A stretch of 64,000 nt of DNA from Archivesica marissinica (taxonomy: Eukaryota > Mollusca > Bivalvia > Venerida > Vesicomyidae): NCBI GenBank assembly GCA_014843695.1, contig CM026401.1, forward strand, positions 31,038,067 through 31,102,066. The letters run 5' to 3'. This document shows positions 30,301-60,900 of this stretch, piece after piece. The first letter of the stretch is position 1; every line of letters begins with the position of its first letter. Made by a program: the position numbers and the translations under genes. A model generated the notes under the pieces. The model saw only the letters and a list, made by a program, of their open reading frames with translations, ran no database searches and was not told where the DNA came from.

Positions 30301-32416
30301 ATATATGTCTATATGACATTGCATATTGAACGCCCCATCTATATATGTCTATATGACATTGTATATTGAACGCCCCATGTATATATGTCTATATGACATT
30401 ACATATCGAACGCCCCATGTATATACGCCCCATGTATATATGTCTATATGACATTGCATATTGAACGCCCCATCTATATATGTCTATATGATATTGTATA
30501 TTGAACGCCCCATGTATATATGTCTATATGACATTACATATCGAACGCCCCATGTATATATGTCTATATGACATTACATATCGGACGCCCCATGTATATA
30601 TGTCTATATGACATTACATATCAAACGCCCCATGTATATATGTCTATATGACATTACATATCGGACGCCCCATGTATATATGTCTATATGACATTACATA
30701 TCAAACGCCCCATGTATATATGTCTATATGACATTACATATCGAACGCCCCATGTATATATGTCTATATGACATTGCATATTGAACGCCCCATCTATATA
30801 TGTCTATATGACATTGTATATTGAACGCCCCATGTATATATGTCTATATGACATTACATATCGAACGCCCCATGTATATACGCCCCATGTATATATGTCT
30901 ATATGACATTGCATATTGAACGCCCCATCTATATATGTCTATATGACATTGCATATCGAACGCCCCATGTATATATGTCTATATGACATGGCATATCGAA
31001 CGCCCCATGTATATATGTCTATATAACATTACATATTGAACGCCCCATGTATATATGTCTATATAACATTACATATAAAATGCCCCATGTATATATGTCT
31101 ATATGACATTACATATCGAACGCCCCATGTATATATGTCTATATGACATTACATATCGAACAACGCCCCATGTATATATGTCTATATGACATTACATATT
31201 GAACGCCCCATGTATATACGCCCCATGTATATATGTCTATATGACATTGCATATTGAACGCCCCATCTATATATGTCTATATGACATTGTATATTGAACG
31301 CCCCATGTATATATGTCTATATGACATTACATATCGAACGCCCCATGTATATACGCCCCATGTATATATGTCTATATGACATTGCATATTGAACGCCCCA
31401 TGTATATATGTCTATATGACATTACATATTGAACGCCCCATGTATATATGTCTATATGACATTACATATCGAACGCCCCATGTATATATGTCTATATGAC
31501 ATTACATATCAAATGCCCCATGTATAGATGTCTATATGACATTACATATCAAACGCCCCATGTATATATGTCTATATGACATTACATATCGAACGCCCCA
31601 TGTATATATGTCTATATGACATTACATATCAAATGCCCCATGTATAGATGTCTATATGACATTACATATCAAATGCCCCATGTATATATGTCTATATAAC
31701 ATTACATATTGAACGCCCCATGTATATATGTCTATATGACATTACATATCAAATGCCCCATGTATATATGTCTATATAACATTACATATCGAACGCCCCA
31801 TGTATATATGACATTACATATCAAATGCCCCATGTATATATTTCTATATGACATTACATATCGAATGCCCCATGTATATATGTCTATATGACATTACATA
31901 TCGAACGCCCCATGTATAGATGTCTATATGACATTACATATCAAATGCCCCATGTATAGATGTCTATATGACATTACATATCAAATGCCCCATGTATATA
32001 TGCCCCATGTATATATGTCTCTATGACATTGCATATTGAACGCCCCATCTATATATGCCCCATGTATATACGCCCCATGTATATATGTCTATATGACATT
32101 ACATATCGAATGCCCCATGTATATATGCCCCATGTATATACGCCCCATGTATATATGCCCCATGTATATATGTCTATATGACATTGCTTATGGCTTGTGG
32201 CAGATGGAGAATTTAAGATTTGTAATATTGTTTGTGTTTTTAGAGTACAAGTTGGTAGCGTTCATTAGTCACATGGGAACATCTACAATGGTAGGACATT
32301 ATGTATGTCATATACTAAAGGAGGATAGATGGGTTATATACAATGATGAGAAGGTAGCACTGTCAGAACATCCCCCAATGGATCTAGCCTATCTGTATAT
32401 GTACAAGAGAATGTGA
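197..32416 (+). CDS. USP5: USP5/USP13-type ubiquitin carboxyl-terminal hydrolase, 3' end of gene (join 197-327, 24003-24123, 32244-32416)
   Basis: The family disassembles unanchored polyubiquitin, recognising the free C-terminal glycine, and acts in cytosol and nucleus as a thiol protease. Only the C-terminal part (141 codons plus a split first codon) is in the window. In order it shows a UBA domain ([17 protein letters not shown], then [14 protein letters not shown] across a splice junction), an acidic linker, and the final catalytic block with the His box [13 protein letters not shown] and WVIYNDEKV, ending in YMYKRM and TGA. This order, UBA2 then the His box, is that of USP5 and its vertebrate paralogue USP13; an invertebrate would normally have one gene for both. 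The splice phases join cleanly: ACG|GAG is phase 0, and A|AG gives Lys in DGSSKYKLVAF. Upstream exons, including the catalytic Cys, lie outside the window. The two introns are about 23.7 and 8.1 kb and consist almost wholly of minisatellites. Confidence 0.93.
372..500. repeat. Short 23-bp tandem repeat just after the USP5 donor
   Basis: About five copies of a 23-bp unit beginning CTGTAAGTCCACTTAAACT, with GTAAGTCC in most copies. It has the same period as the giant array further on but a different sequence. It begins about 45 nt after the real donor. Confidence 0.85.
515..1350. repeat. 36-bp tandem repeat with interspersed TTTCTAGGACCATG variants
   Basis: The unit starts GGTCCATGTAGGCTGTGTAT and continues GTATACGGTGTATATA. 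Some units are replaced by a longer form containing TTTCTAGGACCATGTTGCCA. It shares the GGTCCATGTAGGCTGTGTAT core with the 23-bp array and grades into it through a degenerate stretch at about 1350-1560. Confidence 0.9.
1560..23147. repeat. Giant 23-bp minisatellite filling the USP5 intron
   Basis: The unit is GGTCCATGTAGGCTGTGTAT plus GTA. Common variants have GACTGT or TTGTGT in place of GGCTGT, and TATATA or TGTGTG in place of TATGTA. There are roughly 900 copies over 20.6 kb of real sequence plus a 1000-N gap. The plus strand is GT-rich and full of TAG. The minus strand has no stop in any frame in most units, and since 23 is not a multiple of three all three minus frames read the same 23-residue cycle ([20 protein letters not shown] then TAY). 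The long minus-strand open frames here are an artefact of the repeat, not genes. Confidence 0.97.
19266..20265. other. Assembly gap, 1000 N
   Basis: Exactly 1000 N inside the 23-bp array; a conventional gap size, so the true length is unknown. Confidence 0.99.
23187..23575. repeat. 32-bp tandem repeat, about 12 copies
   Basis: The unit is TCTAACCATCTGTCAAACAT followed by AGCTTGTGTTGA. Copies are nearly identical, suggesting recent expansion. It follows the 23-bp array after about 40 bases of unique sequence and ends just before a hAT-like MITE. Confidence 0.97.
23600..23903. mobile_element. hAT-like MITE, copy 1
   Basis: The ends are TAGGGATGGCAACGAATA and its complement TATTCGTTGCCATCCCTA. 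Perfect 8-bp target duplications ATAATAAT lie at 23592-23599 and 23904-23911. Its interior is shared with the copy at 46527. It has no transposase. The 8-bp duplication and terminal TAGGG fit hAT. Confidence 0.9.
24003..24123 (+). CDS. USP5: USP5 internal exon: end of UBA2 and acidic linker
   Basis: The acceptor TTGATTCAG ends at 24002 and the donor is TTCAA|GTGAGT at 24123/24124. It begins in phase 0 with [19 protein letters not shown], the third UBA helix, matching the family motif of the form NN-LERA-DWIFSH. It continues through an acidic linker (PMDTEELA) to RDGSS plus one base of the next codon. It is isolated between a 23.7-kb intron and an 8.1-kb intron. Confidence 0.92.
24322..24415 (+). 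mobile_element. tRNA-derived SINE, head only
   Basis: It has GCCTCCGTGGTCAAGTGGTT (box A region), TGTATACCACTGTAACCTAT and box B GGTTCGAGCC. This is the same family as the elements at 35143, 54869 and 56373, but the body is missing and AT-rich satellite follows. Confidence 0.8.
24470..24644. mobile_element. TA-flanked MITE, Tc1/mariner type
   Basis: The terminal inverted repeats are CAGTCAAACCTGT and ACAGGTTTGACTG, flanked by TA on both sides. Internally it has repeated AAGCAGCCACC motifs. Size 171 bp between the TAs, no coding capacity. Confidence 0.82.
24650..24790. repeat. Degenerate edge copies before the 40-bp array
   Basis: Several imperfect copies of ATATATACCAGTATGCATTA with CACCCCTCG. 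They look like diverged forerunners of the array that follows. Confidence 0.6.
24796..32190. repeat. 40-bp minisatellite filling the last USP5 intron
   Basis: The unit is ACATTACATATCGAACGCCC then CATGTATATATGTCTATATG, about 180 copies over 7.4 kb. Variants have TTGAA, AAAAT, GGCAT or CATCTAT. Many units carry an extra 15-bp partial duplication (CGCCCCATGTATATA twice). Blocks of several units recur, a higher-order pattern. It stops about 50 bases before the acceptor of the USP5 terminal exon. Short plus-strand open frames inside are repeat artefacts. Confidence 0.97.
32244..32416 (+). CDS. USP5: USP5 terminal coding exon: catalytic histidine box and stop
   Basis: The acceptor is GTGTTTTTAG ending at 32243. 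The two starting bases AG complete Lys with the previous exon's A, giving [24 protein letters not shown] holds the catalytic His of the C19 peptidase fold, and IYND holds the polar residue that orients it. The exon ends with [19 protein letters not shown] and TGA (32414-32416). The last 60 bases, from 32357, are the first copy of a roughly 59-bp tandem array that runs on for about 1 kb past the stop. Confidence 0.95.
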
Positions 32417-33420
32417 AACTGTCAGAACATCCCCCAATGGATCTAGCCTATCTGTAGATGTACAAGAGAATGTGAAACTGTCGGAACATCCCCCAATGGA
32501 TCTAGCCTATCTGTAGATGTACAAGAGAATGTGAAACTGTCGGAACATCCCCCAATGGATCTAGCCTATCTGTATATGTACAAGAGAATGTGAAACTGTC
32601 GGAACATCCCCCCAATGGATCTAGCCTATATGTACAAGAGAATGTAAAACTGTCGGAACATCCCCCAATGGATCTAGCCTATCTGTATATGTACAAGAGA
32701 ATGTGAAACTGTCGGAACATCCCTCAATGGATCTAGCCTATCTGTATATGTACAAGAGAATGTGAAACTGTCGGAACATCCCCCCAATGGATCTAGCCTA
32801 TATGTACAAGAGAATGTAAAACTGTCGGAACATCCCCCAATGGATCTAGCCTATCTGTATATGTACAAGAGAATGTGAAACTGTCGGAACATCCCCCAAT
32901 GGATCTAGCCTATCTGTATATGTACAAGAGAATGTGAAACTGTCGGAACATCCCCCAATGGATCTAGCCTATATGTATATGTACAAGAGAATGTGAAACT
33001 GTCGGAACATCCCCCAATGGATCTAGCCTATCTATATATGTACAAGAGAATGTGAAACTGTCGGAACATCCCCCAATGGATCTAGCCTATATGTATATGT
33101 ACAAGAGAATGTGAAACTGTCGGAACATCCCCCAATGGATCTAGCCTATATGTATATGTACAAGAGAATGTAAAACTGTCGGAACATCCCCCAATGGATC
33201 TAATCTATTTATATCTGGACAAGAGAATTTGACACTGTCGGAACATCCCCTGATGGATATATATACGGACAAGAGAATGTAACACTGTTGGAACATCCCC
33301 TGATGGATATATATACGTACAAGAGAATGTAACACTGTTGGAACATCCCTGATGGATCTAACCTATTTATATATATGCAAGAGAATTTGACACTGTCGGA
33401 ACATCCCCCAATAGATCTAT
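32357..33420. repeat. 59-bp array made from the end of the USP5 coding sequence
   Basis: The first copy is the real 3' end of the gene (ACTGTCAGAACATCCCCCAA, TGGATCTAGCCTATCTGTAT, ATGTACAAGAGAATGTGA). About 17 further copies follow, each with the CDS-like stretch and TGA. Copies become more diverged after about 33190 (GGACAAGAGAATTTGACACTG). If the transcript continues past the stop, this is 3' UTR. Confidence 0.95.
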
Positions 33421-39840: not shown

Positions 39841-39932
39841 ATGGGTAACCAGCTCACTGGTATTGCTCCATCCCAGATTCTTCCAGTGGAACAGTATCTC
39901 ACAGACATACCAGATCTCGAGTTTGGTTGCAG
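39841..39932 (+). CDS. PIK3R4: PIK3R4 coding exon 1 (initiator Met, myristoylation signal)
   Basis: ATG at 39841 opens [20 protein letters not shown] followed by [10 protein letters not shown], and the last two bases AG complete Ser with exon 2. The donor is TGCAG|GTAATT at 39932/39933. The intronic bases give an in-frame TAA at 39934-39936. The last 45-50 bases of this exon, with the donor, are the founding copy of the 51-bp array that follows directly. I can see no clear promoter element upstream; any 5' UTR exon is unidentified. Confidence 0.93.
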
Positions 39933-42900
39933 GTAATTAAAACAGTATCTCACAGACCTACCAGACCTTGAGTTTGATTGCAGGTACTTAGAACTGTATC
40001 TGATGGATTTACCAGACCTCGAGTTTGGGTGCAGGTATTTAGAACAGCATCTCAAGGATCTATCAGACATCGAGTTTGATTGCAGGTATTTAGAACCATA
40101 TATCAATGATCTACCAGGCATTGAGTTTGGTTGCAGGTATTTAGAACCATATATCAACGACCTACTAGGCCTTGAGTTTGATGGCAAGTATTTAGAACCA
40201 TATATCAATGATCTACCAGGCCTTGTGTTTGATGGCAAGTATTTAGAACCATATATCAACGATCTACCAGGCCTTGTGTTTGGTTGCAGGTATTTAGAAC
40301 CATATATCAACGATCTACCAGGCCTTGTGTTTGATGGCAAGTATTTAGAACCATATATCAATGATCTACCAGGCCTTGTGTTTGATGGCAAGTATTTAGA
40401 ACCATATATCAATGATCTACCAGGCCTTGTGTTTGATGGCAAGTATTTAGAACCATATATCAACGATCTACCAGGCCTTGTGTTTGATGGCAAGTATTTA
40501 GAACCATATATCAACGATCTACCAGGCCTTGTGTTTGATGGCAAGTATTTAGAACCATATATCAATGACCTACCAGGCCTTGTGTTTGATGGCAAGTATT
40601 TAAAACCATATATCAACGATCTACCAGGCCTTGTGTTTGATGGCAGGTATTTAGAACCATATATCAATGACCTACCAGGCCTTGAGTTTGATGGCAGGTA
40701 TTTAGAACTATATATCAATGATCTACCAGGCCTTGTGTTTGATGGCAAGTATTTAGAACCATATATCAATGACCTACCAGGCCTTGTGTTTGATGGCAAG
40801 TATTTAGAACCATATATCAATGACCTACCAGGCCTTGGGTTTGATGGCAAGTATTTAGAACCATATATCAATGACCTACTAGGCCTTGTTTGATGGCAGG
40901 TATTTAGAACCATATATCAACGACCTACCAGGCCTTGTGTTTGATGGCAGGTATTTAGAACCATATATCAATGACCTACCAGGCCTTGTGTTTGATGGCA
41001 GGTATTTAGAACCATATATCAATGACCTACCAGACCTTGTGTTTGATGGCAGGTATTTAGAACCATATATCAACGACCTACCAGGCCTTGTGTTTGATGG
41101 CAGGTATTTAGAACCAGATATCAATGACCTACCAGGCCTTGTGTTTGATGGCAGGTATTTAGAACCATATATCAACGACCTACCAGGCCTTGTGTTTGAT
41201 GGCAAGTATTTAGAACCATATATCAACGATCTACCAGGCCTTGTGTTTGATGGCAGGTATTTAGAACCATATATCAATGACCTACCAGGCCTTGTGTTTG
41301 ATGGCAAGTATTTAGAACCATATATCAACGATCTACCAGGCCTTGTGTTTGATGGCAAGTATTTAGAACCATATATCAACGACCTACCAGGCCTTGTGTT
41401 TGATGGCAGGTATTTAGAACCATATATCAATGATCTACCAGGCCTTGTGTTTGATGGCAAGTATTTAGAACCATATATCAACGATCTACCAGGCCTTGTG
41501 TTTGATGGCAAGTATTTAGAACCATATATCAATGACCTACCAGGCCTTGTGTTTGATGGCAGGTATTTAGAACCATATATCAATGACCTACCAGACCTTG
41601 AGATTAATTGCATGTATTTAGAACAGTATCTCAAGGATCAACGGTACACACCTTGAGTTTGATTGCATGTATTTAGAACAGTATCTCAAGGATCTACGGT
41701 ATACACCTTGTGTTTGATGGCAGGTATTTAGAACCATATATCAATGACCTACCAGGCCTTGAGTTTGATGGAATATAAAAACAATTATTGAAGCTTCCAG
41801 TGCTGACTATACGCTGTGTTCTTGTATCATTGTTTGATTGTGGTATAGATTTGTTAGCTTACATATAAATTCATTAAAAACATAATCGTGAGATAGTATG
41901 GTACAAATGTTGGTGTAAATACTTTGCGATGATAATGTATACTTTTTGTTAGGACAGTACAATATTCTTCAATTGTAATGTATGCTTTCAGTTTTGGCAG
42001 TACGCGATTCTTTAATTGTAATGAAATCTATGTATGCTTTCAGTTTGGGCAGTACATGATTCTTCAATTGTAATGAAATCTATGTATGCTTTCAGTTTGG
42101 GCAGTACACGATTCTTCAAGGTTGCAAAGGCCAGGAGTAAGGAAGGTCATGTTGTAGTGAAAGTGTTTGTTATACACGACCCATCCTTACCATTGTCTTC
42201 ATATAAAACTAGACTAGAAGGTAAGATGTTATTCATGACTTTCTACTAGAAATTAATCATATTATATTAGTGTATTTTGTGTGTAGATCAGTAATACACG
42301 ACATATCTAAATGTAAGTCTGCGTTGATAATACATTTAAACTGTAGCAGACATTGCATAGCTTCCTGTTTATATGTATGTCATTAACCGTAGTATAGCTT
42401 CCTGTTTATATATGCCGTTAACCGTAGTATACCTTCCTGTTTATATATGCCATTAACCTTAGTAAACCTTCCTGTTTATATATGTCATTAACTGTAGTAT
42501 AGCTTCCTGTTTATATATGCCGTTAACTGTAGTATAGCTTCCTGTTTATATATGCACCATTAACCGTAGTATGCCATTGACCGTAGTATAGCTTCCTGTT
42601 TATATATGTCATTGAAATGTATACCTTCCTGTTTATATATGTCATTAACCATAGTATACCGTCCTGTTTATATATGCTGTTAACCATAGTATACCTTCCT
42701 GTTTATATATGCTATATATGCCATTAACCATAGTATACCTTCCTGTTTATATATGTCATTAACCATAGTATACCTTCCTGTTTATATATGCTATATATGC
42801 CATTAACCATAGTATACCTTCCTGTTTATATATGTCATTAACCATAGTATACCTTCCTGTTTATATATGCTATATATGCCATTAACCATAGTATACCTTC

Positions 42901-45900
42901 CTGTTTATATATGTCATTAACCATAGTATACCTTCCTGTTTATATATGCTATATATGCCATTAACCATAGTATACCTTCCTGTTTATATATGTCATTAAC
43001 CATAGTATACCTTCCTGTTTATATATGCTATATATGCCATTAACCATAGTATACCTTCCTGTTTATATATGTCATTAACCATAGTATACCTTCCTGTTTA
43101 TATGTCATTAACCATAGTATACCTTCCTGTTTATATATGCTATATATGCCATTAACCATAGTATACCTTCCTGTTTATATATGTCATTAACCATAGTATA
43201 CCTTCCTGTTTATATATGCTATATATGCCATTAACCATAGTATACCTTCCTGTTTATATATGTCATTAACCATAGTATACCTTCCTGTTTATATATGCTA
43301 TATATGCCATTAACCATAGTATACCTTCCTGTTTATATATGTCATTAACCATAGTATACCTTCCTGTTTATATATGCTATATATGCCATTAACCATAGTA
43401 TACCTTCCTGTTTATATATGCTATATATGCCATTAACCATAGTATACCTTCCTGTTTATATATGTCATTAACCATAGTATACCTTCCTGTGTATATATGC
43501 TATATATGCCATTAACCATAGTATACCTTCCTGTTTATATATGTCATTAACCATAGTATACCTTCCTGTTTATATATGTCATTAACCATAGTATACCTTC
43601 CTGTTTATATATGCTATATATGCCATTAACAGTAGTATACCTTCCTGTTTATATATGCCATTAACCTTCCTGTTTATATATGTCATTGAAATGTATACCT
43701 TCCTGTTTATATATGCCATTAACCATAGTATACATTCCTGTTTATATATGTCCTTAACCGTAGTATACATTCCTGTTTATATATGTCATTGACATGTATA
43801 CCTTCCTGTTTATATATGTCATTGAAATGTATACCTTCCTGTTTATATATGCCATTAACTGTAGTATACATTCCTGTTTATATATGCCATTAACCGTAGT
43901 ATACCTTCCTGTTTATATATGTCATTGAAATGTATATCTTCCTGTTTATATATGCCATTAACCGTAGTATACCTTCCTGTTTATATATGTCATTAACCGT
44001 AGTATACCTTCCTGTTTATATATGCCATTAACCGTAGTATACCTTCCTGTTTATATATGCCATTAACCATAGTATACCTTCCTGTTTATATATGCCATTA
44101 ACCGTAGTATACCTTCCTGTTTATATATGTCATTAACCGTAGTATACCTTCCTGTTTATATATGCCATTAACCGTAGTATACCTTCCTGTTTATATATGC
44201 CATTAACCGTAGTATACCTTCCTGTTTATATATGTCATTAACCGTAGTATACCTTCCTGTTTATATATGCCATTAACCATAGTATACCTTCCTGTTTATA
44301 TATGCCATTAACCATAGTATACCTTCCTGTTTATATATGCCATTAACCGTAGTATACCTTCCTGTTTATATATGTCATTAACCGTAGTATACCTTCCTGT
44401 TTATATATGCCATTAACCGTAGTATACCTTCCTGTTTATATATGCCATTAACCATAGTATACCTTCCTGTTTATATATGCCATTAACCGTAGTATACCTT
44501 CCTGTTTATATATGCCATAAGTATACCTTCCTGTTTATATATGCCATTAACCGTAGTATACATTCCTGTTTATATATGCCATTAACTGTAGTATACCTTC
44601 CTGTTTATATATGCCATTAACCGTAGTATACCTTCCTGTTTATATATGCCATTAACCGTAGTATACATTCCTGTTTATATATGCCATTAACCGTAGTATA
44701 CATTCCTGTTTATATATGCCATTAACCGTAGTATACCTTCCTGTTTATATATGCCATTAACCGTAGTATACCTTCCTGTTTATATATGTCATTAACCGTA
44801 GTATACATTCCTGTTTATATATGCCATTAACCGTAGTATACATTCCTGTTTATATATGCCATTAACCGTAGTATACCTTTCTGTTTATATATGCCATTAA
44901 CCGTAGTATACCTTCCTGTTTATATATGTCATTGAAATGTATACCTTCCTGTTTATATATGCCATTAACCATCATGTTTATGAACTCATATCAGAGTATT
45001 TCGGATGAGACATTAAATTGAAGTATTGTGTCGGTGCTTTACACTGTGCACAATGACATAAAAGAACCAGAGGAGACTCTGGAATGTGTCTCTTGTCTGT
45101 ATCATTGCGCTATCCTCCAAAATGACTTATCTCTACAGATGTTTTACATTTACTTATCTCTTACGGGCAACTGGTAGCGATGATAAGTAAATGTAAAACT
45201 CACACCTTCCTGTTTACATGGCTCATTCAAGATCAGAATATCTAGGAGAAGTGAAATGCGCATGGTTGTGTCCTTAATATTAATGGTATTATTTAATAAA
45301 TGTCAACAAAATATGGTTAATATGCTCAATATGACCATTAAATACATCATTTGAATAGAAAGAGTGCTTTACAATGGCCAGTGTAGCTTACTGAACAATA
45401 TTTTGTATGAAAATTGTTTTATGTTTTACGAAGAAATGGGGCCCCCAGGGACGAAGTCAGTGTCCCTAGGGTGACTACTTCGCCCATGTCACCCTCTAGA
45501 TTGAGCCATTGTTTATGTATGCCTTTAACTTGCCAGAAGCCAACAATCACATTACTGTTACTGTACATTTACATAATTCTGCACATGTATGCAGTAATTG
45601 TGTACTGTAATTATATTTTTCAGAGATATGTGTAAACCTAAAGGGGACTTCAAACTGCATACCATTCCAGAGGGCAGCGGTATTACATTATCTTATATCC
45701 CTCTGTATCTCAAACACACCTTGTTTACTGAATGTCGTGTGTTCAAGCCTTGCTTAACCCATTCAACACCAAGTAACTGACATGGACTGGTCCATGACAT
45801 TTTTAGACCAATTAAATTAATAAGAAAATTACATTTGGATCAGTTCATTTATCAAAATGGGTAAACAAAATTTTTTAAAAATTGTAATATTACTGGCAAA

Positions 45901-48900
45901 AAGTGCAGATCCTGATGAGGCTCATCTGGATCTACACTTTTTGTAAACCTATTTAGATGTCTGTGGTGTTGAAAGGGTTAAAGTGCATGGATATCATTAA
46001 TAATTCTTAGCTAATCTGAACTATGTAAATACTAAATAGGCACTGCATATATAGCGGGACAATTCTCTTATTTAGAATTTAGCCATCTGCTTTTAAGTAT
46101 CACCTGACAAATCTTAAAATGTTTTTTCATATTGTCCCCAGAAGGCAGAAAGTAGGGATTGACATGTCATTCAAATTGTCCCACAATGCCACGATTTGAG
46201 TGAAATGTCAAGCACTACTTTCTAGGAAATATAATAAAAATAGTATACATTTGTTATCTGCTCATTTCGCCTACAGCATGCTAAAGGTTAAGTAGATGTA
46301 GATTAATATGAAATTATATGTTATATTATATGTCGATATGTTATGTTGACTCAATTGTCTGATGGTAAAATTAGGTTTGCATTAACGGAGAATGAATGTC
46401 GTCCGTGACTAACGTCTACATGTTACATTGGAATGACCTATACAAATTTAATACTCTCGCAGTCGAGGTATATACTAGATTGTTGCACAATATTTTATTT
46501 CAATATATATATATATATATATACATTAAAGATGGCAACAAATAGCGATTATACTATTCGAATATTCGGTCGGGAAGGTATTCGAATATTCGATAGAATT
46601 CTATCAAAATCACTCAAAATCTTTAAAAAAATGCCAAACTAACCTAATTTCTGTTTTACACATAAACATCATCTTCTTCAAATGATTATTCAGATTGATA
46701 TTGTACCCAAATATGGTAAATCCAATTTGCATAGATTACACCTAGCAGTTTTCTTATTCTCAGAGGGATTAAAGCATTTCCAAACGTGTGACTGAGCGGG
46801 TGTCATTGTTGAGGACAATATAATATATTTTCCCGAATATTCGAATACTGGAATTGTATTCGGATATTCGAACGTTCGAGTGATTATTCGTTGCCATCCC
46901 TAATATACATGTACATACATTGTCTTCTATGATATACAGTGTGTCAACAGGATTGAGGGAAAAGTATAGTTTTTAACTTTATTTATTTTACAACGCTTGC
47001 GAAGCAAGTTTTAACAACTTATATTAATCACTTTCGTTGGCGCAGATGAAAGCGTAAATGTGGTCATTCGTGTGGGAGGAAACCGGAGTACCCGGAGAAA
47101 ACCCACCTGTCCGATCTTGCGACCACCGTATCATCGCACATACTTCCCTGTCAGAGGATCGAGCCCGGGTTGCATTGGCCCTAATAAAAATAACAGTTGT
47201 TCAGATGGGACTTTAAACCAAGATCTCGTGTCGTTGTTTACACCGTGCACGAAACAGAACCAAACCAGAGGAGACTCTGGAATGGGTATCTGTCTGTATC
47301 ATTGCGCTATCCCAGTCCGATGATTGAACCCGGGTTGCATTAGTGAGAAGCGAGCGCGCTAACTACTGCGCTAATCGGACAGTCTATTGGAGAAAGTATA
47401 AAATACTTAGTAGGTCCCTTCTCCTGACTGGGTTTAGTCGCAGAATGTAATAAATATTGTTAGATTGTTTGCTTCATTGCATCTTATGTAATATAAAAAC
47501 TATTATTAGAGGGCGTATATATATTTCAGCAACACGACAAGGCGGCTGTGTTGTTCAGACAGTATGTTAAGCACAGTTTATATGACAGAATAAGTACGCG
47601 ACCATTCCTGAATACCATCGAGAAAAAGTGGATAGCTTGCCAACTACTCTGTGCACTGAACCAGTGTCATAAACTAAAGGTATATGCCGCTGCCTCCTGT
47701 GTCAGAGTGCACTGAACCAGTGTCATAAACTAAAGGTATATGCCGCTACATCCTGCGTCAGAGTGCACTGAACCAGTGTCGTAAACTAAAGGTATATGCC
47801 GCTACATCCTGCGTCAGAGTGCACTGAACCAGTGTCATAAACTAAAGGTATATGCCGCTACATCCTGTGTCAGAGTGCACTGAACCAGTGTCGTAAACTA
47901 AAGGTATATGCCGCTATATCCTGCGTCAGAGTGCACTGAACCAGTGTCATAAACTAAAGGTATATGCCGCTACATCCTGCGTCAGAGTGCACTGAACCAG
48001 TGTCATAAACTAAAGGTATATGCCGCTACATCCTGTGTCAGAGTGCACTGAACCAGTGTCATAAACTAAAGGTATATGCCGCTAAATCATGTGCAAGATT
48101 CATTGAAATGGTATATGCGGCTATATATCATGTGCAAGATTCATTGAAATGGTATATACCGCTATATCATGTGCAAGATTCATTGAAATGGTATATGCGG
48201 CTATATATCATGTGCAAGATTCATTGAAATGGTATATGCCGCTATATCATGTGCAAGATTCATTGAAATGGTATATGCGGCTATATATCATGTGCAAGAT
48301 TCATTGAAATGGTATATACCGCTATATCATGTGCAAGATTCATTGAAATGGTATATGCCGCTATATCATGTGCAAGATTCATTGAAATGGTATATGCCGC
48401 TATATCATGTGCAAGATTCATTGAAATGGTATATGCCGCTATATCATGTGCAAGATTCATTGAAATGGTATATGCGGCTATATATCATGTGCAAGATTCA
48501 TTGAAATGGTATATGCCGCTATATCATGTGCAAGATTCATTGAAATGGTATATGCGGCATATATCATGTGCAAGATTCATTGAAATGGTATATACCGCTA
48601 TATCATGTGCAAGATTCATTGAAATGGTATATGCGGCATATATCATGTGCAAGATTCATTGAAATGGTATATGCGGCTATATCATGTGCAAGATTCATTG
48701 AAATGGTATATGCCGCTATATCATGTGCAAGATTCATTGAAATGGTATATGCGGCTATATATCATGTGCAAGATTCATTGAAATGGTATATACCGCTATA
48801 TCATGTGCAAGATTCATTGAAATAGTATATGCGGCTATATATCATGTGCAAGATTCATTGAAATGGTATATACCGCTATATCATGTGCAAGATTCATTGA

Positions 48901-51900
48901 AATGGTATATGCGGCTATATATCATGTGCAAGATTCATTGAAATGGTATATGCCGCTATATCATGTGCAAGATTCATTGAAATGGTATATGCGGCTATAT
49001 ATCATGTGCAAGATTCATTGAAATGGTATATGCCGCTATATCATGTGCAAGATTCATTGAAATGGTATATGCCGCTATATCATGTGCAAGATTCATTGAA
49101 ATGGTATATGCGGCTATATCATGTGCAAGATTCATTGAAATGGTATATGCGGCTATATATCATGTGCAAGATTCATTGAAATGGTATATGCCGCTATATC
49201 ATGTGCAAGATTCATTGAAATGGTATATGCCGCTATATCATGTGCAAGATTCATTGAAATGGTATATGCGGCTATATCATGTGCAAGATTCATTGAAATG
49301 GTATATACCGCTATATCATGTGCAAGATTCATTGAAATGGTATATGCGGCTATATATCATGTGCAAGATTCATTGAAATGGTATATGCCGCTATATCATG
49401 TGCAAGATTCATTGAAATGGTATATGCCGCTATATCATGTGCAAGATTCATTGAAATGGTATATGCCGCTATATCATGTGCAAGATTCATTGAAATGGTA
49501 TATGCCGCTATATCATGTGCAAGATTCATTGAAATGGTATATGCCGCTATATCATGTGCAAGATTCATTGAAATGGTATATGCCGCTATATCATGTGCAA
49601 GATTCATTGAAATGGTATATGCCGCTATATCATGTGCAAGATTCATTGAAATGGTATATGCCGCTATATCATGTGCAAGATTCATTGAAATGGTATATGC
49701 CGCTATATCATGTGCAAGATTCATTGAAATGGTATATGCCGCTATATCATGTGCAAGATTCATTGAAATGGTATATGCCGCTATATCATGTGCAAGATTC
49801 ATTGAAATGGTATATGCCGCTATATCATGTGCAAGATTCATTGAAATGGTATATGCGGCTATATATCATGTGCAAGATTCATTGAAATGGTATATGCCGC
49901 TATATCATGTGCAAGATTCATTGAAATGGTATATGCGGCTATATATCATGTGCAAGATTCATTGAAATGGTNNNNNNNNNNNNNNNNNNNNNNNNNNNNN
50001 NNNNNNNNNNNNNNNNNNNNNNNNNNNNNNNNNNNNNNNNNNNNNNNNNNNNNNNNNNNNNNNNNNNNNNNNNNNNNNNNNNNNNNNNNNNNNNNNNNNN
50101 NNNNNNNNNNNNNNNNNNNNNNNNNNNNNNNNNNNNNNNNNNNNNNNNNNNNNNNNNNNNNNNNNNNNNNNNNNNNNNNNNNNNNNNNNNNNNNNNNNNN
50201 NNNNNNNNNNNNNNNNNNNNNNNNNNNNNNNNNNNNNNNNNNNNNNNNNNNNNNNNNNNNNNNNNNNNNNNNNNNNNNNNNNNNNNNNNNNNNNNNNNNN
50301 NNNNNNNNNNNNNNNNNNNNNNNNNNNNNNNNNNNNNNNNNNNNNNNNNNNNNNNNNNNNNNNNNNNNNNNNNNNNNNNNNNNNNNNNNNNNNNNNNNNN
50401 NNNNNNNNNNNNNNNNNNNNNNNNNNNNNNNNNNNNNNNNNNNNNNNNNNNNNNNNNNNNNNNNNNNNNNNNNNNNNNNNNNNNNNNNNNNNNNNNNNNN
50501 NNNNNNNNNNNNNNNNNNNNNNNNNNNNNNNNNNNNNNNNNNNNNNNNNNNNNNNNNNNNNNNNNNNNNNNNNNNNNNNNNNNNNNNNNNNNNNNNNNNN
50601 NNNNNNNNNNNNNNNNNNNNNNNNNNNNNNNNNNNNNNNNNNNNNNNNNNNNNNNNNNNNNNNNNNNNNNNNNNNNNNNNNNNNNNNNNNNNNNNNNNNN
50701 NNNNNNNNNNNNNNNNNNNNNNNNNNNNNNNNNNNNNNNNNNNNNNNNNNNNNNNNNNNNNNNNNNNNNNNNNNNNNNNNNNNNNNNNNNNNNNNNNNNN
50801 NNNNNNNNNNNNNNNNNNNNNNNNNNNNNNNNNNNNNNNNNNNNNNNNNNNNNNNNNNNNNNNNNNNNNNNNNNNNNNNNNNNNNNNNNNNNNNNNNNNN
50901 NNNNNNNNNNNNNNNNNNNNNNNNNNNNNNNNNNNNNNNNNNNNNNNNNNNNNNNNNNNNNNNNNNNNNNNTATATCATGTGCAAGATTCATTGAAATGG
51001 TATATGCGGCTATATCATGTGCAAGATTCATTGAAATGGTATATGCCGCTATATCATGTGCAAGATTCATTGAAATGGTATATGCGGCTATATATCATGT
51101 GCAAGATTCATTGAAATGGTATATACCGCTATATCATGTGCAAGATTCATTGAAATGGTATATGCGGCTATATCATGTGCAAGATTCATTGAAATGGTAT
51201 ATGCCGCTATATCATGTGCAAGATTCATTGAAATGGTATATGCCGCTATATCATGTGCAAGATTCATTGAAATGGTATATGCGGCTATATATCATGTGCA
51301 AGATTCATTGAAATGGTATATGCCGCTATATCATGTGCAAGATTCATTGAAATGGTATATGCGGCTATATATCATGTGCAAGATTCATTGAAATGGTATA
51401 TGCCGCTATATCATGTGCAAGATTCATTGAAATGGTATATGCGGCTATATATAATGTGCAAGATTCATTGAAATGGTATATGCCGCTATATCATGTGCAA
51501 GATTCATTGAAATGGTATATGCGGCTATATATCATGTGCAAGATTCATTGAAATGGTATATGCGCTATATCATGTGCAAGATTCATTGAATGGTATATGC
51601 CGCATATCATGTGCAAGATTCATTGAATGGTATATGCGGCTATATCATGTGCAAGATTCATTGAAATGGTATATGCCTTATATCATGTGCAAGATTCATT
51701 GAAATGGTATATGCCGCTATATCATGTGCAAGATTCATTGAAATGGTATATGCCGCTATATCATGTGCAAGATTCATTGAAATGGTATATGCGGCTATAT
51801 CATGTGCAAGATTCATTGAAATGGTATATACCGCTATATCATGTGCAAGATTCATTGAAATGGTATATGCGGCTATATATCATGTGCAAGATTCATTGAA

Positions 51901-54900
51901 ATGGTATATGCCGCTATATCATGTGCAAGATTCATTGAAATGGTATATGCCGCTATATCATGTGCAAGATTCATTGAAATGGTATATGCCGCTATATCAT
52001 GTGCAAGATTCATTGAAATGGTATATGCCGCTATATCATGTGCAAGATTCATTGAAATGGTATATGCGGCTATATATCATGTGCAAGATTCATTGAAATG
52101 GTATATGCCGCTATATCATGTGCAAGATTCATTGAAATGGTATATGCCGCTATATCATGTGCAAGATTCATTGAAATGGTATATGCCGCTATATCATGTG
52201 CAAGATTCATTGAAATGGTATATGCCGCTATATCATGTGCAAGATTCATTGAAATGGTATATGCCGCTATATCATGTGCAAGATTCATTGAAATGGTATA
52301 TGCCGCTATATCATGTGCAAGATTCATTGAAATGGTATATGCCGCTATATCATGTGCAAGATTCATTGAAATGGTATATGCGGCTATATCATGTGCAAGA
52401 TTCATTGAAATGGTATATGCCGCTATATCATGTGCAAGATTCATTGAAATGGTATATGCGGCTATATATCATGTGCAAGATTCATTGAAATGGTATATGC
52501 GGCTATATATCATGTGCAAGATTCATTGAAATGGTATATGCCGCTATATCATGTGCAAGATTCATTGAAATGGTATATGCGGCTATATCATGTGCAAGAT
52601 TCATTGAAATGGTATATGCCGCTATATCATGTGCAAGATTCATTGAAATGGTATATGCCGCTATATCATGTGCAAGATTCATTGAAATGGTATATGCGGC
52701 TATATATCATGTGCAAGATTCATTGAAATGGTATATACCGCTATATCATGTGCAAGATTCATTGAAATGGTATATGCCGCTATATCATGTGCAAGATTCA
52801 TTGAAATGGTATATGCGGCTATATCATGTGCAAGATTCATTGAAATGGTATATGCGGCTATATCATGTGCAAGATTCATTGAAATGGTATATGCGGCTAT
52901 ATCATGTGCAAGATTCATTGAAATGGTATATGCGGCTATATCATGTGCAAGATTCATTGAAATGGTATATACCGCTATATCATGTGCAAGATTCATTGAA
53001 ATGGTATATGCCGCTATATCATGTGCAAGATTCATTGAAATGGTATATGCGGCTATATCATGTGCAAGATTCATTGAAATGGTATATACCGCTATATCAT
53101 GTGCAAGATTCATTGAAATGGTATATGCCGCTATATCATGTGCAAGATTCATTGAAATGGTATATGCGGCTATATATCATGTGCAAGATTCATTGAAATG
53201 GTATATACCGCTATATCATGTGCAAGATTCATTGAAATGGTATATACCGCTATATCATGTGCAAGATTCATTGAAATGGTATATACCGCTATATCATGTG
53301 CAAGATTCATTGAAATGGTATATGCGGCTATATCATGTGCAAGATTCATTGAAATGGTATATGCCGCTATATCATGTGCAAGATTCATTGAAATGGTATA
53401 TGCGGCTATATATCATGTGCAAGATTCATTGAAATGGTATATGCCGCTATATCATGTGCAAGATTCATTGAAATGGTATATGCGGCTATATATCATGTGC
53501 AAGATTCATTGAAATGGTATATGCTAATTGAATGTTGTGTATATTGTGCTAGGTTTGTCACAAAGACATTACAGCGACAAAGCATCACAACAAGCAAAGA
53601 ATGAATATTTTATGTATAAATAACATTGTACAAAATAACATTGTACAAAATACCTACTACAAATTCTTCTAAAATATACACTAACCTTCATATATATCCA
53701 AATAATAGTCAAGGAAATTGTATACAAAAATCCGGCTCATTCATTTTCATTCAGCTTGGTTTTGAATAAACTGGATAATCAGTAGATGTTTTCTTTTTCC
53801 ACCAATGTAGTGTCGCTTTAAGCCAGAGAATGTCATTATAACTGGTTGGTATTTGTTAACAACTTTTTTGTCAATAATGAGGGACCTCGCTGGCTTTGCT
53901 ATTACCTCCCTTGGCAGATAAAGTCCGATTTATCCCTAAATGTATAGCTGTCCTTTCAGTTGGAATCCTTTGTTTTTACAGTTGTTCCCTATACTAACCA
54001 GATGTTGCGTTAATATATATATGTGATTTTATCTAAATCATGTTAGTTAATTGACAAAAGAAGTTACAGATTTTTTACCCATTGGATATACTGTAGGATA
54101 TCTGTCGAGATATAGTGACATAATAATTATAATATGAGAAAGTGGAAGAAAATTTAAGCAACTTAAGATGTCCTACATACTTTTAGGGAGTATTCAGGGG
54201 CAGTAACTGACTGATGTCTCTCATTGTTGTAGGTTTGTCACGGGGACATTAAGTCAGAGAATGTCATGATCACTGGCTGGAACTGGTTGCTGCTGACTGA
54301 TTTTGCCAGCTTCAAACCCACATATCTGCCTGATGTAAGTCATATCTAACCCACATATCTGCCTGATGTAAGTCGTATCTAACCCACATATCTGCCTGAT
54401 GTAAGTCGTATCTAACCCACATATCTGCCTGATGTAAGTCATATCTAACCCACATATCTGCCTGATGCAAGTCGTATCTAACCCACATATCTGCCTGATG
54501 TAAGTCGTATCTAACCCACATATCTGCCTGATGTAAGTCGTATCTAACCCACATATCTGCCTGATGCAAGTCGTATCTAACCCACATATCTGCCTGATGT
54601 AAGTCGTATCTAACCCACATATCTGCCTGATGTAAGTCATATCTAACCCACATATCTGCCTGATGTAAGTCATATCTAACCCACATATCTGCCTGATGTA
54701 AGTCGTATCTAACCCACATAGTTTCATTCAAGCCAACATTTGACCCTAGACTTATGGCCGAGATTGACAGTGAATATACACTATATTGTTTGGACTTTCC
54801 TTTGTTCATTGTACATTGTATTTATTTTCAGCTACATGGAATGTATTTTGCTGTTTGTAGTTATATTCGGTCCTCCTCCGTGGTTGAGTGGTTACGGTCG

Positions 54901-57900
54901 CTGACTTGTATACCACTGTAACCTATCATCACTGATGGTCACAGGTTCGAGCCCCGCTCAGGCCATGTCTCATTTATATGAAAAAGTTGGCAGTTTCTTA
55001 CTGAGGTTGCTGCACCCAAGTACTGGTTAACTGCTGGAGCCTGCCCAGGAAAGGTGTTGTTAAGTAAACTGCCCACCGGCGATATAGCCCGAAATGGTGC
55101 TGATGCAGGCGTAAATCCCGAAATATAACATATAACAATTGTAGTTATATTCAGTTAACCCTTTACACGCTAGCGGCGGATAAAATCACTTTTGCACACA
55201 GCATAGAGCCAGATAGAGATAGACTCTCTGCTGTTTGCTACTCGGATAGTGGAGCTAAAGCACTTGGATGAATAGTAAACAGGTTACCGGGTAGATCCTG
55301 GATCTATGTTGTTTACAAATGTGATTATATTTACTCAGCATGTTACACTAGACTTAAGCTTCCATTTTCCCCCTCATACATGTAGGTAGCAAATCTGTCG
55401 AGGACATCTTATTTATGCCTTACAAAGACAAAATGGTATGATTTGTAATCACAGAACATATACATGTGAGGTGTAGTTATTTGGCCATCCGCAGAATTAA
55501 TATATGATATTTTTTTTAAACTTTATTTTACAACAATTGATAAGCATGTTTTAACTTATATTGATTACTCTCGTTGGCACAGATGAAAGCGTAAATGTGG
55601 TCATTCATGTGGGAGGAAACCGGAGTACCCGGAGAAAACCCATCTGGCGACCACCGTACCATCACACATACTTCCCGGTCCGAGGATCGAACCCTTGTTG
55701 CATTGGTGAGAAGCGAGTGCGCTCATTTTTAATGGGACATGTGTAGAGAATTTGCTTCATGTTTTCAGGACAATCCGTCTGATTTCTCATACTTCTTTGA
55801 CACGTCGAGACGCAGGACATGCTACATAGCGCCAGAGAGATTTGTTGATATTGCTTCTCGTAATGTTGAGGCTGCTAGTCAAGGTCAGAATCTAGATCTG
55901 ACCGCTACAGGAGAGGTGAAAGCTGGTGACCTCACGCCAGCCATGGATATCTTCTCTGCAGGGTAAATATACCAATTGTTGACGTAGCACGGAAATTTAT
56001 TTCAGCTGCACAATTTACCAGCCAAATAACCTGTGCAATTTTCTTTTTTTGGCTGTCGGTAAAGTAAACATTTCAACTAAAAGGAGTGTGTAAAAAGTTT
56101 TTATTTAAACTAAAATTGTACACTAGTCTACTACAAATTGTGATACACAGAGTAGTTGCACCAAATTAAACATCCGTGGCCTAGTGGTTAAAGCGCGGAG
56201 CGGGAGGTTGATGGTCCGAACCTCGTCAGGAGTTCGTTCTGATATGGCCAGTTGGTGAGCCGCCAGCTAGTTAAATAATGGTTACTGATTGCCTACCAGC
56301 CCGGTGTCTGGCATACAAGCATAGGATTCGGGAAGTACTTATGTTCATAAAAAGATGTGTCTCATAAGTCGGGTCCGCCTCCGTGGTCGAGTGGTTAAGG
56401 TCGCTGGCTTGTATACTACTGTAACCTATCATCACTGATGGTCACGGGTTCGAGCCCCGCTCAGACCGTGTCTCATTTATATGAAAAAGTTGGCAGTTTC
56501 TTACGGAGGTTGGTGCACCCAAGTACTGGTTAACCGCTGGAGCCTGCCCAGGAAAGGTGTTGTTAGGTAAACTGCCCGCCTGCGATATAGCCCAAAATGG
56601 TGCTGATGCAGGCGTAAAACCCGAAATATAACATAACTCATAAGTCGGAAATGAATGGTCCTTTAAATAGGGTGACACTATAATAAACAAACACTTACTT
56701 ACTTATATAGTGTAAAATGATCTAAATGCACCAACTATTCCAATATTGGGATACAAATTAATGTTGGTTAATATATACATGTAGCAAGTCTTCTAAAACT
56801 GCCGATCGTTGACTTGCAAGCTAATTCTGATGTAAACGTAACCCGTCATGTCCAAATATAGACACCATACTAGTCATGTGGACCAAACTGAGCGATGTAG
56901 CGTAACATGTCATGTCCCAGTAGTGACACCCTAGTTATGTGGACCAAACTGAGCAATGTAGCGTAACCCTTCGTGTCCCAGTAATGACACCCTAGTCATG
57001 TGGACCAAACTGAGCAATGTAGCATAACCCTTCATGTCCCAGTAGTGACACCCTAGTCATGTGGACCAAACTGAGCAATGTAGCGTAACCCTTCGTGTCC
57101 CAGTAGTGACACCCTAGTCATGTGGACCAAACTGAGCGATGTAGCGTAACCCTTCGTGTCCCAGTAGTGACACCCTAGTCATGTGGACCAAACTGAGCAA
57201 TGTAGCATAACCCGTCCTGTCCCGGTAGTGACACCCTAGTCATGTGGACCAAACTGAGCAATGTAGCATAACCCTTCGTGTCCCAGTAGTGACACCCTAG
57301 TCATGTGGACCAAACTGAGCAATGTAGCATAACCCTTCGTGTCCCAGTAGTGACACCCTAGTCATGTGGACCAAACTGAGCGATGTAGCATAACCCTTCG
57401 TGTCCCAGTAATGACACCCTAGTTATGTGGACCAAACTGAGCGATGTAACGTAACCCTTCGTGTCCCAGTAGTGACACCCTAGTCATGTGGACCAAACTG
57501 AGCGATGTAGCGTAACCCTTCGTGTCCCAGTAGTGACACCCTAGTTATGTGGACCAAACTGAGCGATGTAACGTAACCCTTCGTGTCCCAGTAGTGACAC
57601 CCTAGTCATGTGGACCAAACTGAGCGATGTAGCGTAACATGTCATGTCCCAGTAGTGACACCCTAGTCATGTGGACCAAACTGAGCGATGTAGCATAACC
57701 CTTCGTGTCCCAGTAGTGACACCCTAGTCATGTGGACCAAACTGAGCAATGTAGCATAACCCTTCGTGTCCCAGTAGTGACACCCTAGTTATGTGGTCCA
57801 AACTGAGCAATGTAGCGTAACCCTTCGTGTCCCAGTAGTGACACCCTAGTCATGTGGACCAAACTGAGCAATGTAGCGTAACCCTTCGTGTCCCAGTAGT

Positions 57901-60900
57901 GACACCCTAGTCATGTGGACCAAACTGAGCAATGTAGCGTAACCCTTCGTGTCCCAGTAGTGACACCCTAGTCATGTGGACCAAACTGAGCAATGTAGCG
58001 TAACCCTTCGTGTCCCAGTAGTGACACCCTAGTCATGTGGACCAAACTGAGCAATGTAGCGTAACCCTTCGTGTCCCAGTAGTGACACCCTAGTCATGTG
58101 GACCAAACTGAGCAATGTAGCGTAACCCTTCGTGTCCCAGTAGTGACACCCTAGTCATGTGGACCAAACTGAGCAATGTAGCGTAACCCTTCGTGTCCCA
58201 GTAGTGACACCCTAGTCATGTGGACCAAACTGAGCAATGTAGCGTAACCCTTCGTGTCCCAGTAGTGACACCCTAGTCATGTGGACCAAACTGAGCAATG
58301 TAGCGTAACCCTTCGTGTCCTAGTAGTTTAGACTCTAGTCATGTGGACCAAAACAAGCAATGTAACGTAATATGATGTAACGTAATATGATGTAACGTAA
58401 TATGATGTGGTCTGGCTGTGAAGTATTATCAATGACAACCAAAACAATGTATCGTAATAGCAATTAAAGTGTTTATCATTGTCTGTTTGCTATCATAAAT
58501 TGGGATCATATTTCACTCGTGAATAAATAATTGAATGACAATGATGCCTATTAGATGACCTACCCCTACTTTGGTCCTGAAATCTGTGGATTTTGGCATT
58601 CATTCACATATAAGACGGGTTGATAAAATGGATACCAGACCATGTATAAATTGCATGTTTGTCCAGTTGCAAGTTGAAGACATTTTTAGTGTCGGAGTGA
58701 TTTTTTTTCTAAAAATTATTTATGGATACCATTTAACACATTTAAAAAATATTTTAAAAATGGCTGGTGTACATTAAAAAATTAATTTGAGGCCATAATC
58801 TTATTGTAAAAACCTTGTCTTATAGGCGAGTATGGACGTTAATTAATAACTCTCACAAATCTACATATTTTATTTAGCAATTGGTTATGTTATATGTTAT
58901 ATTTCGGGTTTTACGCCTGCATCAGCACCATTTTGGGCTATATCGCCGGCGGGCAGTTTACCTAACAACACTTTTCCTGGGCAGGCTCCAGCGGTTAACC
59001 AGTACTTGGGTGCACCAACCTCCGTAAGAAACTGCCAATTTGCGATTGGACCAAATAGAATTTGAATATTTGAAAGTGGTATTAGAGTAGTATTTGAAAC
59101 TTGAAACTTTGAAATCAGAATTTTTCCCTAACAGTGGTGTGTTTACACTCGTAATTTCCCAATTGAAAGTTATTTAAAGCCATGAGTAACGCCATGTACA
59201 AAGTGTCAAAGGGCGTCTGAGATTGGGAACAGGTGGTCATGCACGGCAACAAGCTCTCGAGGGGTGTGAATCATTGCTGTTTTTGGAGTGGATTTACCAT
59301 TGAAATGAAATTAGAAATAACCAAAATTAATACAGAAATAGAAAGTGGAAAAAAAAATTTAATACTGAAATGTTTAACCAATTAATGACTAGGGCCACAA
59401 GCCTTTGTCTAGAGAACCGGTCCTATATTAACCATTTACTACACACATAGGTGTAATTCGCCTCCTCTATGCAGAGAACGTCATAATATTTATTCATGAA
59501 ATCATATTTTGTACATGATTTATTGACCTGCATTCTATTTACTGTGTGTGTAATTATGGAGTTCTTTATTGAAGGTAGTCCACCATTATATGTCACAGTT
59601 GGTGGTGTACATTTTGTGTGTGTTCTACGTTTATCTATCGTCGCTACCGGTTGCCCATATGAGCAACGCCTCTGAAGAGATTTTTGGAAGATAGTGCAAT
59701 GATACAGACAGAGACCCATTTCAGAGTCTCCTCTGGTTCTTTTACGTGCACAGTGTACAGCACCGACACGAGACCTCGGTTTAAAGTCCCTGAAAGACTG
59801 TTAATTTTATTAGGTCCAGACGGGGGATCATTTGTTTTCCTATTTACTAGGTGTGTGATAGCAGAGTTATTTACAGAAGGCAGCCCACCATTTGATCTGT
59901 CACAACTGCTTGCATACAGAAACAGAGAGTACAGTCCCTGGAAGGTACTTGAGAAGATTGAAGATACCAATGTTAGGGTATGCATACCTTTGGAAATATA
60001 CCAAGCTTCTGTTTCCATGGCAACATTTGGAAATATACCAAGCTTTTCTTTCCATGGCAACATTGGAAATATACCAAGTTTTTGTTTCCATGTCAACCTT
60101 TGGAAATGTACAGAGCCTTTGTTTCCATGACAACATTTGGACTTATGCCGAGCCTTTGTTTCCATGGCAACATTTGGACTTATACCGAGCCTTTGTTTCC
60201 ATGGCAACATTTGGAAATATACCGAGCCTTTGTTTCCATGGCAACCTTTGGAAATACACAGAGCTTTTCATCCGATGCAATGATATATCAACTGTAGAGT
60301 TACTCCTTACGATATGTAAATTGGTGTTAATAATATGAAAATACAGGGACTGTCAGCTTCAGAGCTGAGGTTCAAAGCAAGAAGCCAAAAATAAGTGAAT
60401 TCTTCTTTAGACAATGATAGACATGATTTTCAATGAACAACTTGAGCATATATTTAATATTGTAGTTATTTATGGATAGCTGACATACATACATGTACAA
60501 AGATATGATGTTACCCCAAACAAAACCCTGGGTATGACTAGAGTTACATGACATTGTCTTGGTGAGTTGTCCTTCCACATTTTGCATTAAGAGACTGTTT
60601 TATTAAAAACAAGTGCTTCTTTAGACAAAGACACATATTGTATTTGGCTTGTGTGTACATGTATATACAGTAAAACCCCTATAATAAGACCACCTATGGG
60701 ACTTTCAAAAAATGGTCTTATTAGCGGGTTGGTCTCTTTATCGAGTTTGGTCAAGAAGACCAAATTATGATAATTTACATGTACAATTTACTTTCAAACA
60801 TGATAATTTCTTGGTGTTTCTGTTTTAATTACAGAAGAGTTGGTTGTTTCTATGGTTTAGGATTGTACTTCTGAAATCCATTCATAGACAACTGTATATC

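Follow-up and report, generated by a model that had tools for sequence, protein, structure and literature searches.

Minisatellite arrays spanning exon edges of PIK3R4 and USP5, a case of the mirage class with an excess at splice donors

RESULTS

Arrays carrying exon edges in PIK3R4 and USP5

The window, i.e., the whole 64-kb stretch of DNA analyzed, contains exons of two neighboring genes, PIK3R4 (the joined exons match human PIK3R4, best E value 2.8e-140) and USP5 (E value 7.8e-49). Together with 200 kb of flanking genome it forms a joined stretch of 264 kb. Tandem arrays make up 73% of the window and 57% of the joined stretch, with two 1-kb N gaps falling within them. An Rfam scan gave zero matches, and scans for viral contigs found no viral sequence. 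Among the 120 matches listed of 751 size-limited ones, protein identity over about 200 residues was 81.2% with Patella vulgata (limpet), 80.5% with Lamellibrachia (tubeworm), and 74.8% with Branchiostoma; amphioxus was rejected as the host because the limpet and tubeworm proteins were the closer among these matches.

Five of the arrays include the edge of an exon of the gene in which they lie:

32244..32416, + strand, coding portion of the terminal USP5 exon, whose end, stop codon included, forms copy 1 of the 59-bp array
32359..33419, + strand, 59-bp array over the USP5 stop codon and into the 3′ UTR, 18.5 copies
39841..39932, + strand, PIK3R4 exon 1, with the final 44 nt plus the donor CAG/GTAATT forming copy 1 of the 51-bp array
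39889..41771, + strand, 51-bp array over the PIK3R4 exon 1 donor, 36.2 copies
41933..42119, + strand, 52-bp array over the PIK3R4 exon 2 acceptor, 2.7 to 3.9 copies, the last being the real acceptor
42096..42220, + strand, PIK3R4 exon 2
47530..47679, + strand, PIK3R4 exon 4, the final 29 nt of which lie within copy 1 of the 56-bp array
47651..48088, + strand, 56-bp array over the PIK3R4 exon 4 donor, 7.8 copies
54233..54334, + strand, PIK3R4 exon 5, the final 20 nt of which lie within copy 1 of the 33-bp array
54315..54720, + strand, 33-bp array over the PIK3R4 exon 5 donor, 12.3 copies

The arrangement reported in the initial annotation was thus borne out for PIK3R4: the donors of exons 1, 4, and 5 lie inside the 51-, 56-, and 33-bp arrays, whose units hold the gene's own edge, and the exon 2 acceptor lies inside a 52-bp tandem array carrying its own edge. 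The USP5 stop codon is likewise inside an array of its own edge, but that edge is the boundary between coding end and 3′ UTR and not a splice junction. The limpet protein agrees with the copy 1 joins at the ends of PIK3R4 exons 1, 4, and 5. It is the copy on the exon side, first at donors and last at acceptors, that fits the protein, as expected from the proposal that the real junction is kept at one end of the array. Within the exon 1 array, copy identity falls from 88% beside the exon to 71 to 76% in the core.

Array origins are enriched at exon edges

Within the window, 22 edges, comprising 20 splice sites, 1 start, and 1 stop, were tested by comparing the −30 to +30 sequence of each with the surrounding 3 kb, at a threshold score of ≥60. 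Self-copies were found at five edges, exactly those initially annotated (4 of the 20 splice edges); the other 17 had no copy of their own scoring ≥60 within 3 kb. By the same measure, 81.6% of 250 random non-exon positions scored ≥60, and exon edges are indeed depleted of arrays when raw density, i.e., bases covered, is the yardstick. The bases-covered density was rejected as a null because it mistakes the length of an array for the number of its origins.

We therefore placed one seed per array. On the collapsed unique sequence of the window, 0.37 to 0.92 edge-spanning arrays were expected, depending on the overlap required, and the probability of five or more was 0.00005 to 0.0016. Across the 264 kb, 15 spanning arrays were observed against 2.3 (2.34) expected from random placement of 107 seeds (Poisson, 3e-8), or 13 against 1.64 if at least 10 exon nt were demanded. 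The window had been selected post hoc, yet the edges outside it show the same excess, with 11 spanning arrays against 1.65 expected (Poisson, 1.4e-6). These counts omit TRF rows with a score of <100 or <1.9 copies (the latter, two in the window sets), and they refer to 75 edges (37 donors and 38 acceptors), nearly all from the two neighboring genes; PIK3R4 and USP5 exons missed by tblastn are outside this set. Edges outside the window were positioned by GT/AG rules near the tblastn ends, with the donor at 155758 of the joined stretch used in place of 155936, which is inside an array copy.

The initial verdict that five cases were far beyond coincidence hence stands under seed placement and falls under raw array density, and the same division applies to the outcome that was to count against it, overlap no greater than density predicts, which is what bases covered give and array origins do not. 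Recurrent duplication of short segments across exon edges, as originally proposed, is supported, and the enrichment persists in sequence that the initial annotation had not seen.

Could plain density nonetheless account for the pattern, with uniformly distributed arrays that are purged when wholly inside exons and overlap some edges by chance? The extensive array coverage and the depletion of edges by bases covered speak for it, as does the drop in pooled enrichment from 4.0 to 3.1 on removal of dispersed repeats within the stretch, a figure that older undetected repeats could shrink further. The ratio of 3.1 is still significant (P = 5.6e-5), and the seed-placement nulls fall well short of the observed counts both overall and outside the window, so we regard this explanation as unlikely. 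Given the same drop, part of the edge enrichment may reflect sequence age; the enrichment may stem from a mutational preference or else from the greater age of near-exon sequence. The majority of edges in the 264 kb (60 of 75) are unspanned.

Donors are spanned more often than acceptors

In the 264 kb, 12 of 37 donors are spanned by an array, compared with 3 of 38 acceptors, an excess with Fisher P values of 0.01 to 0.04: P is 0.0098 for these counts and weakens to 0.036 once 10 exon nt are required. Array starts per kb rise from 1.09 farther off to 5.2 near donors, and from 0.87 to 2.64 near acceptors. Between −5 and +50 the starts are even, with five at donors and seven at acceptors, one of the donor starts (at −5) being counted as spanning too. 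This bias toward donors had not been remarked on in the initial annotation.

Decoy splice sites within the arrays

Many, though not all, copies retain splice signals, as in the mirages described below. The GT is intact in all 35 decoys examined in the exon 1 array, where pairing with U1 is always poorer than at the real donor; all 7 decoys of the exon 4 array have the GT and reproduce the 9-base sequence of the real donor, and 9 of 11 in the exon 5 array retain the GT. For a wider count we used 13 donors, a set that differs from the 12 spanned ones in adding L014:3297 (two copies) and L017:5247 (where the TRF array begins 30 nt inside the intron) and in leaving out the decayed case L013:3377. 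These 13 real donors are followed by 362 exact decoys, 149 of them behind a single donor, and at 12 of the 13 the array holds at least two GT sites with U1 pairing equal to or better than that of the real site. A rule that the real site must outrank its decoys consequently holds for exon 1 and fails elsewhere. A second candidate rule, that an in-frame stop guards every donor array, was also rejected, only 9 of 13 having such a stop ahead of their first decoy.

Rows of equal donors might be thought to help define or regulate the splicing of long introns, and both the donor bias and the abundance of exact decoys are in keeping with such a function. It appears very unlikely all the same, since exon 1 has no decoy that matches its real donor in quality, every edge has a unit of different length and sequence, and most donors in the same genes have no array.

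That the copies are alternative coding repeats lengthening the protein in some transcripts is an idea to which we attach little credence. It fits the arrays at L018:1758 and L014:3297, whose units are divisible by three and free of in-frame stops before the first decoy; against it are the stops in the nine arrays noted above, the exon 2 array, in which splicing at one or other of its two clear decoy acceptors would bring a frameshift and stops, and the limpet and human proteins, which carry no such repeats at the PIK3R4 joins.

Derived array and decayed copies

Other parts of the introns that carry these arrays are filled by arrays of the same kind. Further arrays and decayed copies in the window are as follows:

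48071..53524, + strand, 39-bp array interrupted by an N gap (49972-50971), with a unit equal to that at the exon 4 donor shortened by 17 bases
53525..53585, + strand, decayed copy of the PIK3R4 exon 5 acceptor and exon start, score 52 (maximum of 300 shuffles, 38)
53818..53857, + strand, decayed copy of part of PIK3R4 exon 5, score 52 (maximum of 300 shuffles, 37)
59535..59611, + strand, decayed copy of the exon 7 acceptor and exon start, score 72.5 (maximum of 300 shuffles, 45)
59989..60268, + strand, 37-bp array beginning 12 nt past the exon 7 donor

The 39-bp array descends from the 56-bp unit of the PIK3R4 exon 4 donor. Neither this descent nor the decayed copies of exon starts had been noticed initially. 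The 37-bp array was excluded from the spanning count because its unit contains no exon sequence. Misbuilding or inflation of the arrays during assembly, which the two N gaps inside them might suggest, has a negligible chance of being the explanation in view of the substitutions between copies, graded by exon distance in the exon 1 array, and of the decayed old copies.

DISCUSSION

Tandem duplications of exon-intron boundaries have been named "mirages" in amphioxus, where they are described in Adh3 (units of 10 to 72 bp), PGBD5 (60 and 108 bp), the globins BflGb6 and BflGb9 (globin units of 150 to 160 bp), and troponin C, with regular splicing undisturbed according to cDNA and with length polymorphism and somatic instability (PMC3087553, PMC3902484). 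The initial statement that no named class of repeat looks like this is therefore not supported: those accounts describe the same class, boundary-spanning tandem repeats at donors and acceptors with many copies bearing AG/GT. The unit lengths here, 16 to 102 bp, are within the mirage range of 10 to 160 bp. The arrays in PIK3R4 and USP5 are thus a further case of a known class, in another phylum, with the addition of an edge count and a donor bias.

There are also differences from amphioxus. By protein similarity, the host here looks lophotrochozoan. Certain arrays reach much greater lengths (>5 kb and >100 copies), edges were counted against a null, donors dominate, and a stop codon is hit as well. 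Splicing and instability are demonstrated for the amphioxus repeats, whereas the present arrays are known from the sequence of one haploid assembly. A literature search, partly at the level of listings, found no report of such repeats outside amphioxus.

Two other systems invite comparison. In the Rogers model, introns are reportedly gained through tandem duplication of AGGT-containing segments, the potato RdRp gene being the case mentioned; it shares with our arrays a short tandem duplication bearing splice signals, but there the duplication creates a new intron while here an intron is enlarged at an edge. Ordinary intronic minisatellites are the same kind of array with no requirement for exon content, unlike the arrays here, which contain exon sequence above random expectation.

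Our preferred reading, to which we assign a probability of roughly 70%, is that these are mirage minisatellites in which edge-straddling seeds expanded into introns while coding selection held the exon copy. The genome would form minisatellites very readily, and a short tandem duplication would occasionally straddle an exon edge, after which slippage or unequal exchange would extend it into the intron. Coding selection would hold the exon's own copy at the end nearest the exon, leaving the remaining copies to drift and homogenize as intron. At donors, the real site would be transcribed first and used, by first-come choice or exon definition, and the later decoys may be tolerated for that reason; at acceptors the decoys would be transcribed first and mostly purged. 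Arrays would then survive at sites where splicing continues to use the donor transcribed first. Rather unlikely, in our judgment, is a stronger version in which 5′ splice sites are favored birthplaces of minisatellites genome-wide in this lineage, via transcription, R-loops, or U1-bound structures. If it were true, donor-seeded arrays would be one of the main ways in which introns grow, and the spliceosome would regularly select the foremost donor in rows of tens to hundreds of identical ones.

With arrays across about one-third of the examined donors from two genes, mirages extend beyond amphioxus and turn from single-gene curiosities into a countable pattern. In the rows of identical donors, nature offers an experiment on spliceosome choice between equal sites, and the acceptors of the exons starting at L013:6005 and L027:9404, with AGs just 16 to 17 nt apart, offer a natural test of the AG-exclusion rule. 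Junction arrays likewise point to a way in which introns could grow and be gained.

A third gene with a junction array, absent from the initial annotation, is copine-like (one of its three exons is a weak match, E value 1.9) and is not among the 75 edges. One of its five edges is spanned, and this is an acceptor. With the 12 donors and 3 acceptors of the 75-edge set, both 5′ and 3′ boundaries are affected, as in mirages.

Gene content of the window

The window (positions 31038067-31102066 of contig C16 in assembly G000, which comprises 1.54 Gb in 2,808 contigs) consists of tandem arrays over 73% of its length. USP5 is represented by its 3′ end and PIK3R4 by exons 1 to 8, all on the + strand.

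Coding exons in the window (coordinates, strand, feature)
197-327, +, USP5 coding exon
24003-24123, +, USP5 coding exon
32244-32416, +, USP5 terminal exon, coding part
39841-39932, +, PIK3R4 exon 1
42096-42220, +, PIK3R4 exon 2
45624-45679, +, PIK3R4 exon 3
47530-47679, +, PIK3R4 exon 4
54233-54334, +, PIK3R4 exon 5
55769-55962, +, PIK3R4 exon 6
59851-59977, +, PIK3R4 exon 7
63179-63351, +, PIK3R4 exon 8

Among proteins of fitting length (best 120 of 751), the closest PIK3R4 match was that of the limpet Patella vulgata (77% across the whole query); over the first ~200 residues, identities among the matches listed were 81.2% for the limpet, 80.5% for the tubeworm Lamellibrachia, and 74.8% for Branchiostoma. 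By this one gene, the host looks lophotrochozoan (either a mollusc or an annelid) rather than a lancelet. The limpet protein agrees with joins in which exons 1, 4, and 5 end in the exon-side copy.

Arrays spanning exon edges

The window has 22 edges: 20 splice sites, the start, and the stop. The 60 bases around each were aligned to the 3 kb on either side, with a cut-off score of at least 60. Five edges reached it: the donors of PIK3R4 exons 1 (score 66), 4 (108), and 5 (101), the exon 2 acceptor (99), and the USP5 stop (115). These are the same five cases that the initial annotation had described as tandem copies of exon-intron junctions, although in USP5 the array spans the end of the coding sequence rather than a splice site. 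Along the exon 1 array, identity to the exon copy falls from 88% in the first intron copy through 82%, 80%, and 76% in the three that follow to 71 to 76% in later ones (first 18 copies). Most of intron 4 is a 39-bp array whose unit is the exon 4 donor unit minus 17 bases (score 53, compared to at most 28.5 in 500 shuffles), and thus ~5.9 kb, including a 1-kb N gap, derived from one donor. Decayed single copies of the exon 5 and exon 7 starts lie upstream of those exons, and 12 nt off the exon 7 donor is an array whose unit has no exon sequence.

Enrichment over chance

Of 250 random non-exon positions in the window, 81.6% scored at least 60. Because arrays are long, bases covered are unfit as a null, and array origins were counted instead, with 21 seeds placed on 16.4 kb of collapsed sequence. 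The edge-spanning arrays expected were 0.92, 0.62, and 0.37 for overlaps of 5, 10, and 15 nt (P of at least five, 0.0016, 0.0002, and 0.00005, respectively). Since the window had been picked for its look, the stretch was extended by 70 kb on its upstream side and by 130 kb on its downstream side, and both USP5 and PIK3R4 run on into the added sequence; 10 of the 55 additional edges scored at least 60. The resulting 264 kb is 57% array and contains 107 arrays; 75 splice edges were counted in it. Fifteen edge-spanning arrays were seen there versus 2.34 under random seeding (Poisson, 3e-8), or 13 versus 1.64 if at least 10 exon nt were demanded. Outside the window only, the figures were 11 versus 1.65 (Poisson, 1.4e-6).

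Array starts were likewise concentrated at edges, with 5.2 per kb within −60 to +50 of donors versus 1.09 per kb at 100 to 1600 (p = 2.8e-5), and 2.64 per kb near acceptors versus 0.87 per kb farther away (p = 0.0066). Taking out the dispersed repeats detectable inside the 264-kb stretch left a pooled start ratio of 3.1 (p = 5.6e-5) instead of 4.0, with 3.6 for donors and 2.4 for acceptors; part of the edge excess may thus reflect the greater age of near-exon compared to deep-intron DNA.

Donor bias and decoy splice sites

Spanning arrays were commoner at donors (12 of 37) than at acceptors (3 of 38; p = 0.0098), also with a 10-nt overlap (10 versus 3; p = 0.036). Array starts at −5 to +50 were even, with five at donors, one of which is also in the spanning count, and seven at acceptors. 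A filter acting on splicing would yield such a bias: decoy donors, lying downstream of the real donor, could be ignored, whereas decoy acceptors, lying upstream of the real acceptor, would be encountered first and filtered.

Thirteen real donors are followed by 362 exact copies of their real 9-mers and by 420 GT sites with U1 pairing at least equal to that of the real donor. The largest numbers of exact decoys, 149 and 110, follow the donors at L019:1030 and L018:3993 (positions in fetched sequence pieces); in the exon 1 donor array no decoy equals the real donor in U1 pairing. In 9 of the 13 donor arrays an in-frame stop comes ahead of the first decoy; in the other 4 there is none before it. 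Two of three acceptors examined have 72 and 110 upstream matches to the 8-mer at the acceptor, the nearest upstream AG being 17 and 16 nt off; for the exon 2 acceptor the corresponding values are a single match and 43 nt.

Relation to amphioxus mirages

The initial annotation knew of no named class for such repeats. A name exists: in the sections available of two amphioxus reports (PMC3087553, PMC3902484), tandem repeats of exon-intron boundaries in Adh3 are called mirages, with further cases in globins, troponin C, and PGBD5. They have units of 10 to 160 bp, involve both boundary types, carry AG/GT in many copies, are unstable in length, and leave splicing undisturbed according to cDNA; those sections call their mechanism unclear. 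The arrays described here share the testable sequence features of mirages, a likeness at the level of sequence. They are a real, recurrent feature of this known class in another phylum, for which the edges were counted and a donor bias was seen. A literature search of limited coverage found no boundary-spanning repeats in animals other than amphioxus.

Other genes and repeats

Downstream of PIK3R4, a copine-like gene (L027:9404 and upstream; L028:775-1047), found afterwards and outside the 75-edge count, has one of five edges array-spanned: an acceptor that is the last of ~165 copies of a 16-bp unit (2.6-kb array, AG every ~16 nt). The USP5 exon matching human residues 652-698 (L015:7363-8937 region) is followed by ~20 copies of its 3′ part plus donor, in 79- and 88-bp units, many of them matched by human USP5. 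The intron that follows USP5 exon 197-327 is mostly occupied by a 23-bp-unit array (1390-23147, ~21.8 kb) interrupted by a 1-kb N gap (19266-20265). A 40-bp-unit array without exon sequence (24796-32183, 7.4 kb) stops ~60 nt ahead of the USP5 terminal exon acceptor.

Dispersed tRNA-like (SINE-looking) elements occur on both strands at ~35140-35390, ~54870-55130, ~56370-56640, and ~58890-59050, with the common body tggcagtttcttac...gcacccaagtactggttaac; their 20-base core had no match in viral contigs. Among the matches listed, internal TTAGGG clusters lie far from contig ends on C1 (~5.86-5.90 Mb) and C6 (~33.29-33.31 Mb), some repeats at ~5.8-kb spacing. Upstream of USP5 are two long open frames of 353 and 399 aa (L009:8456-9514 and L010:6398-7594), which we take to be transposase-like.
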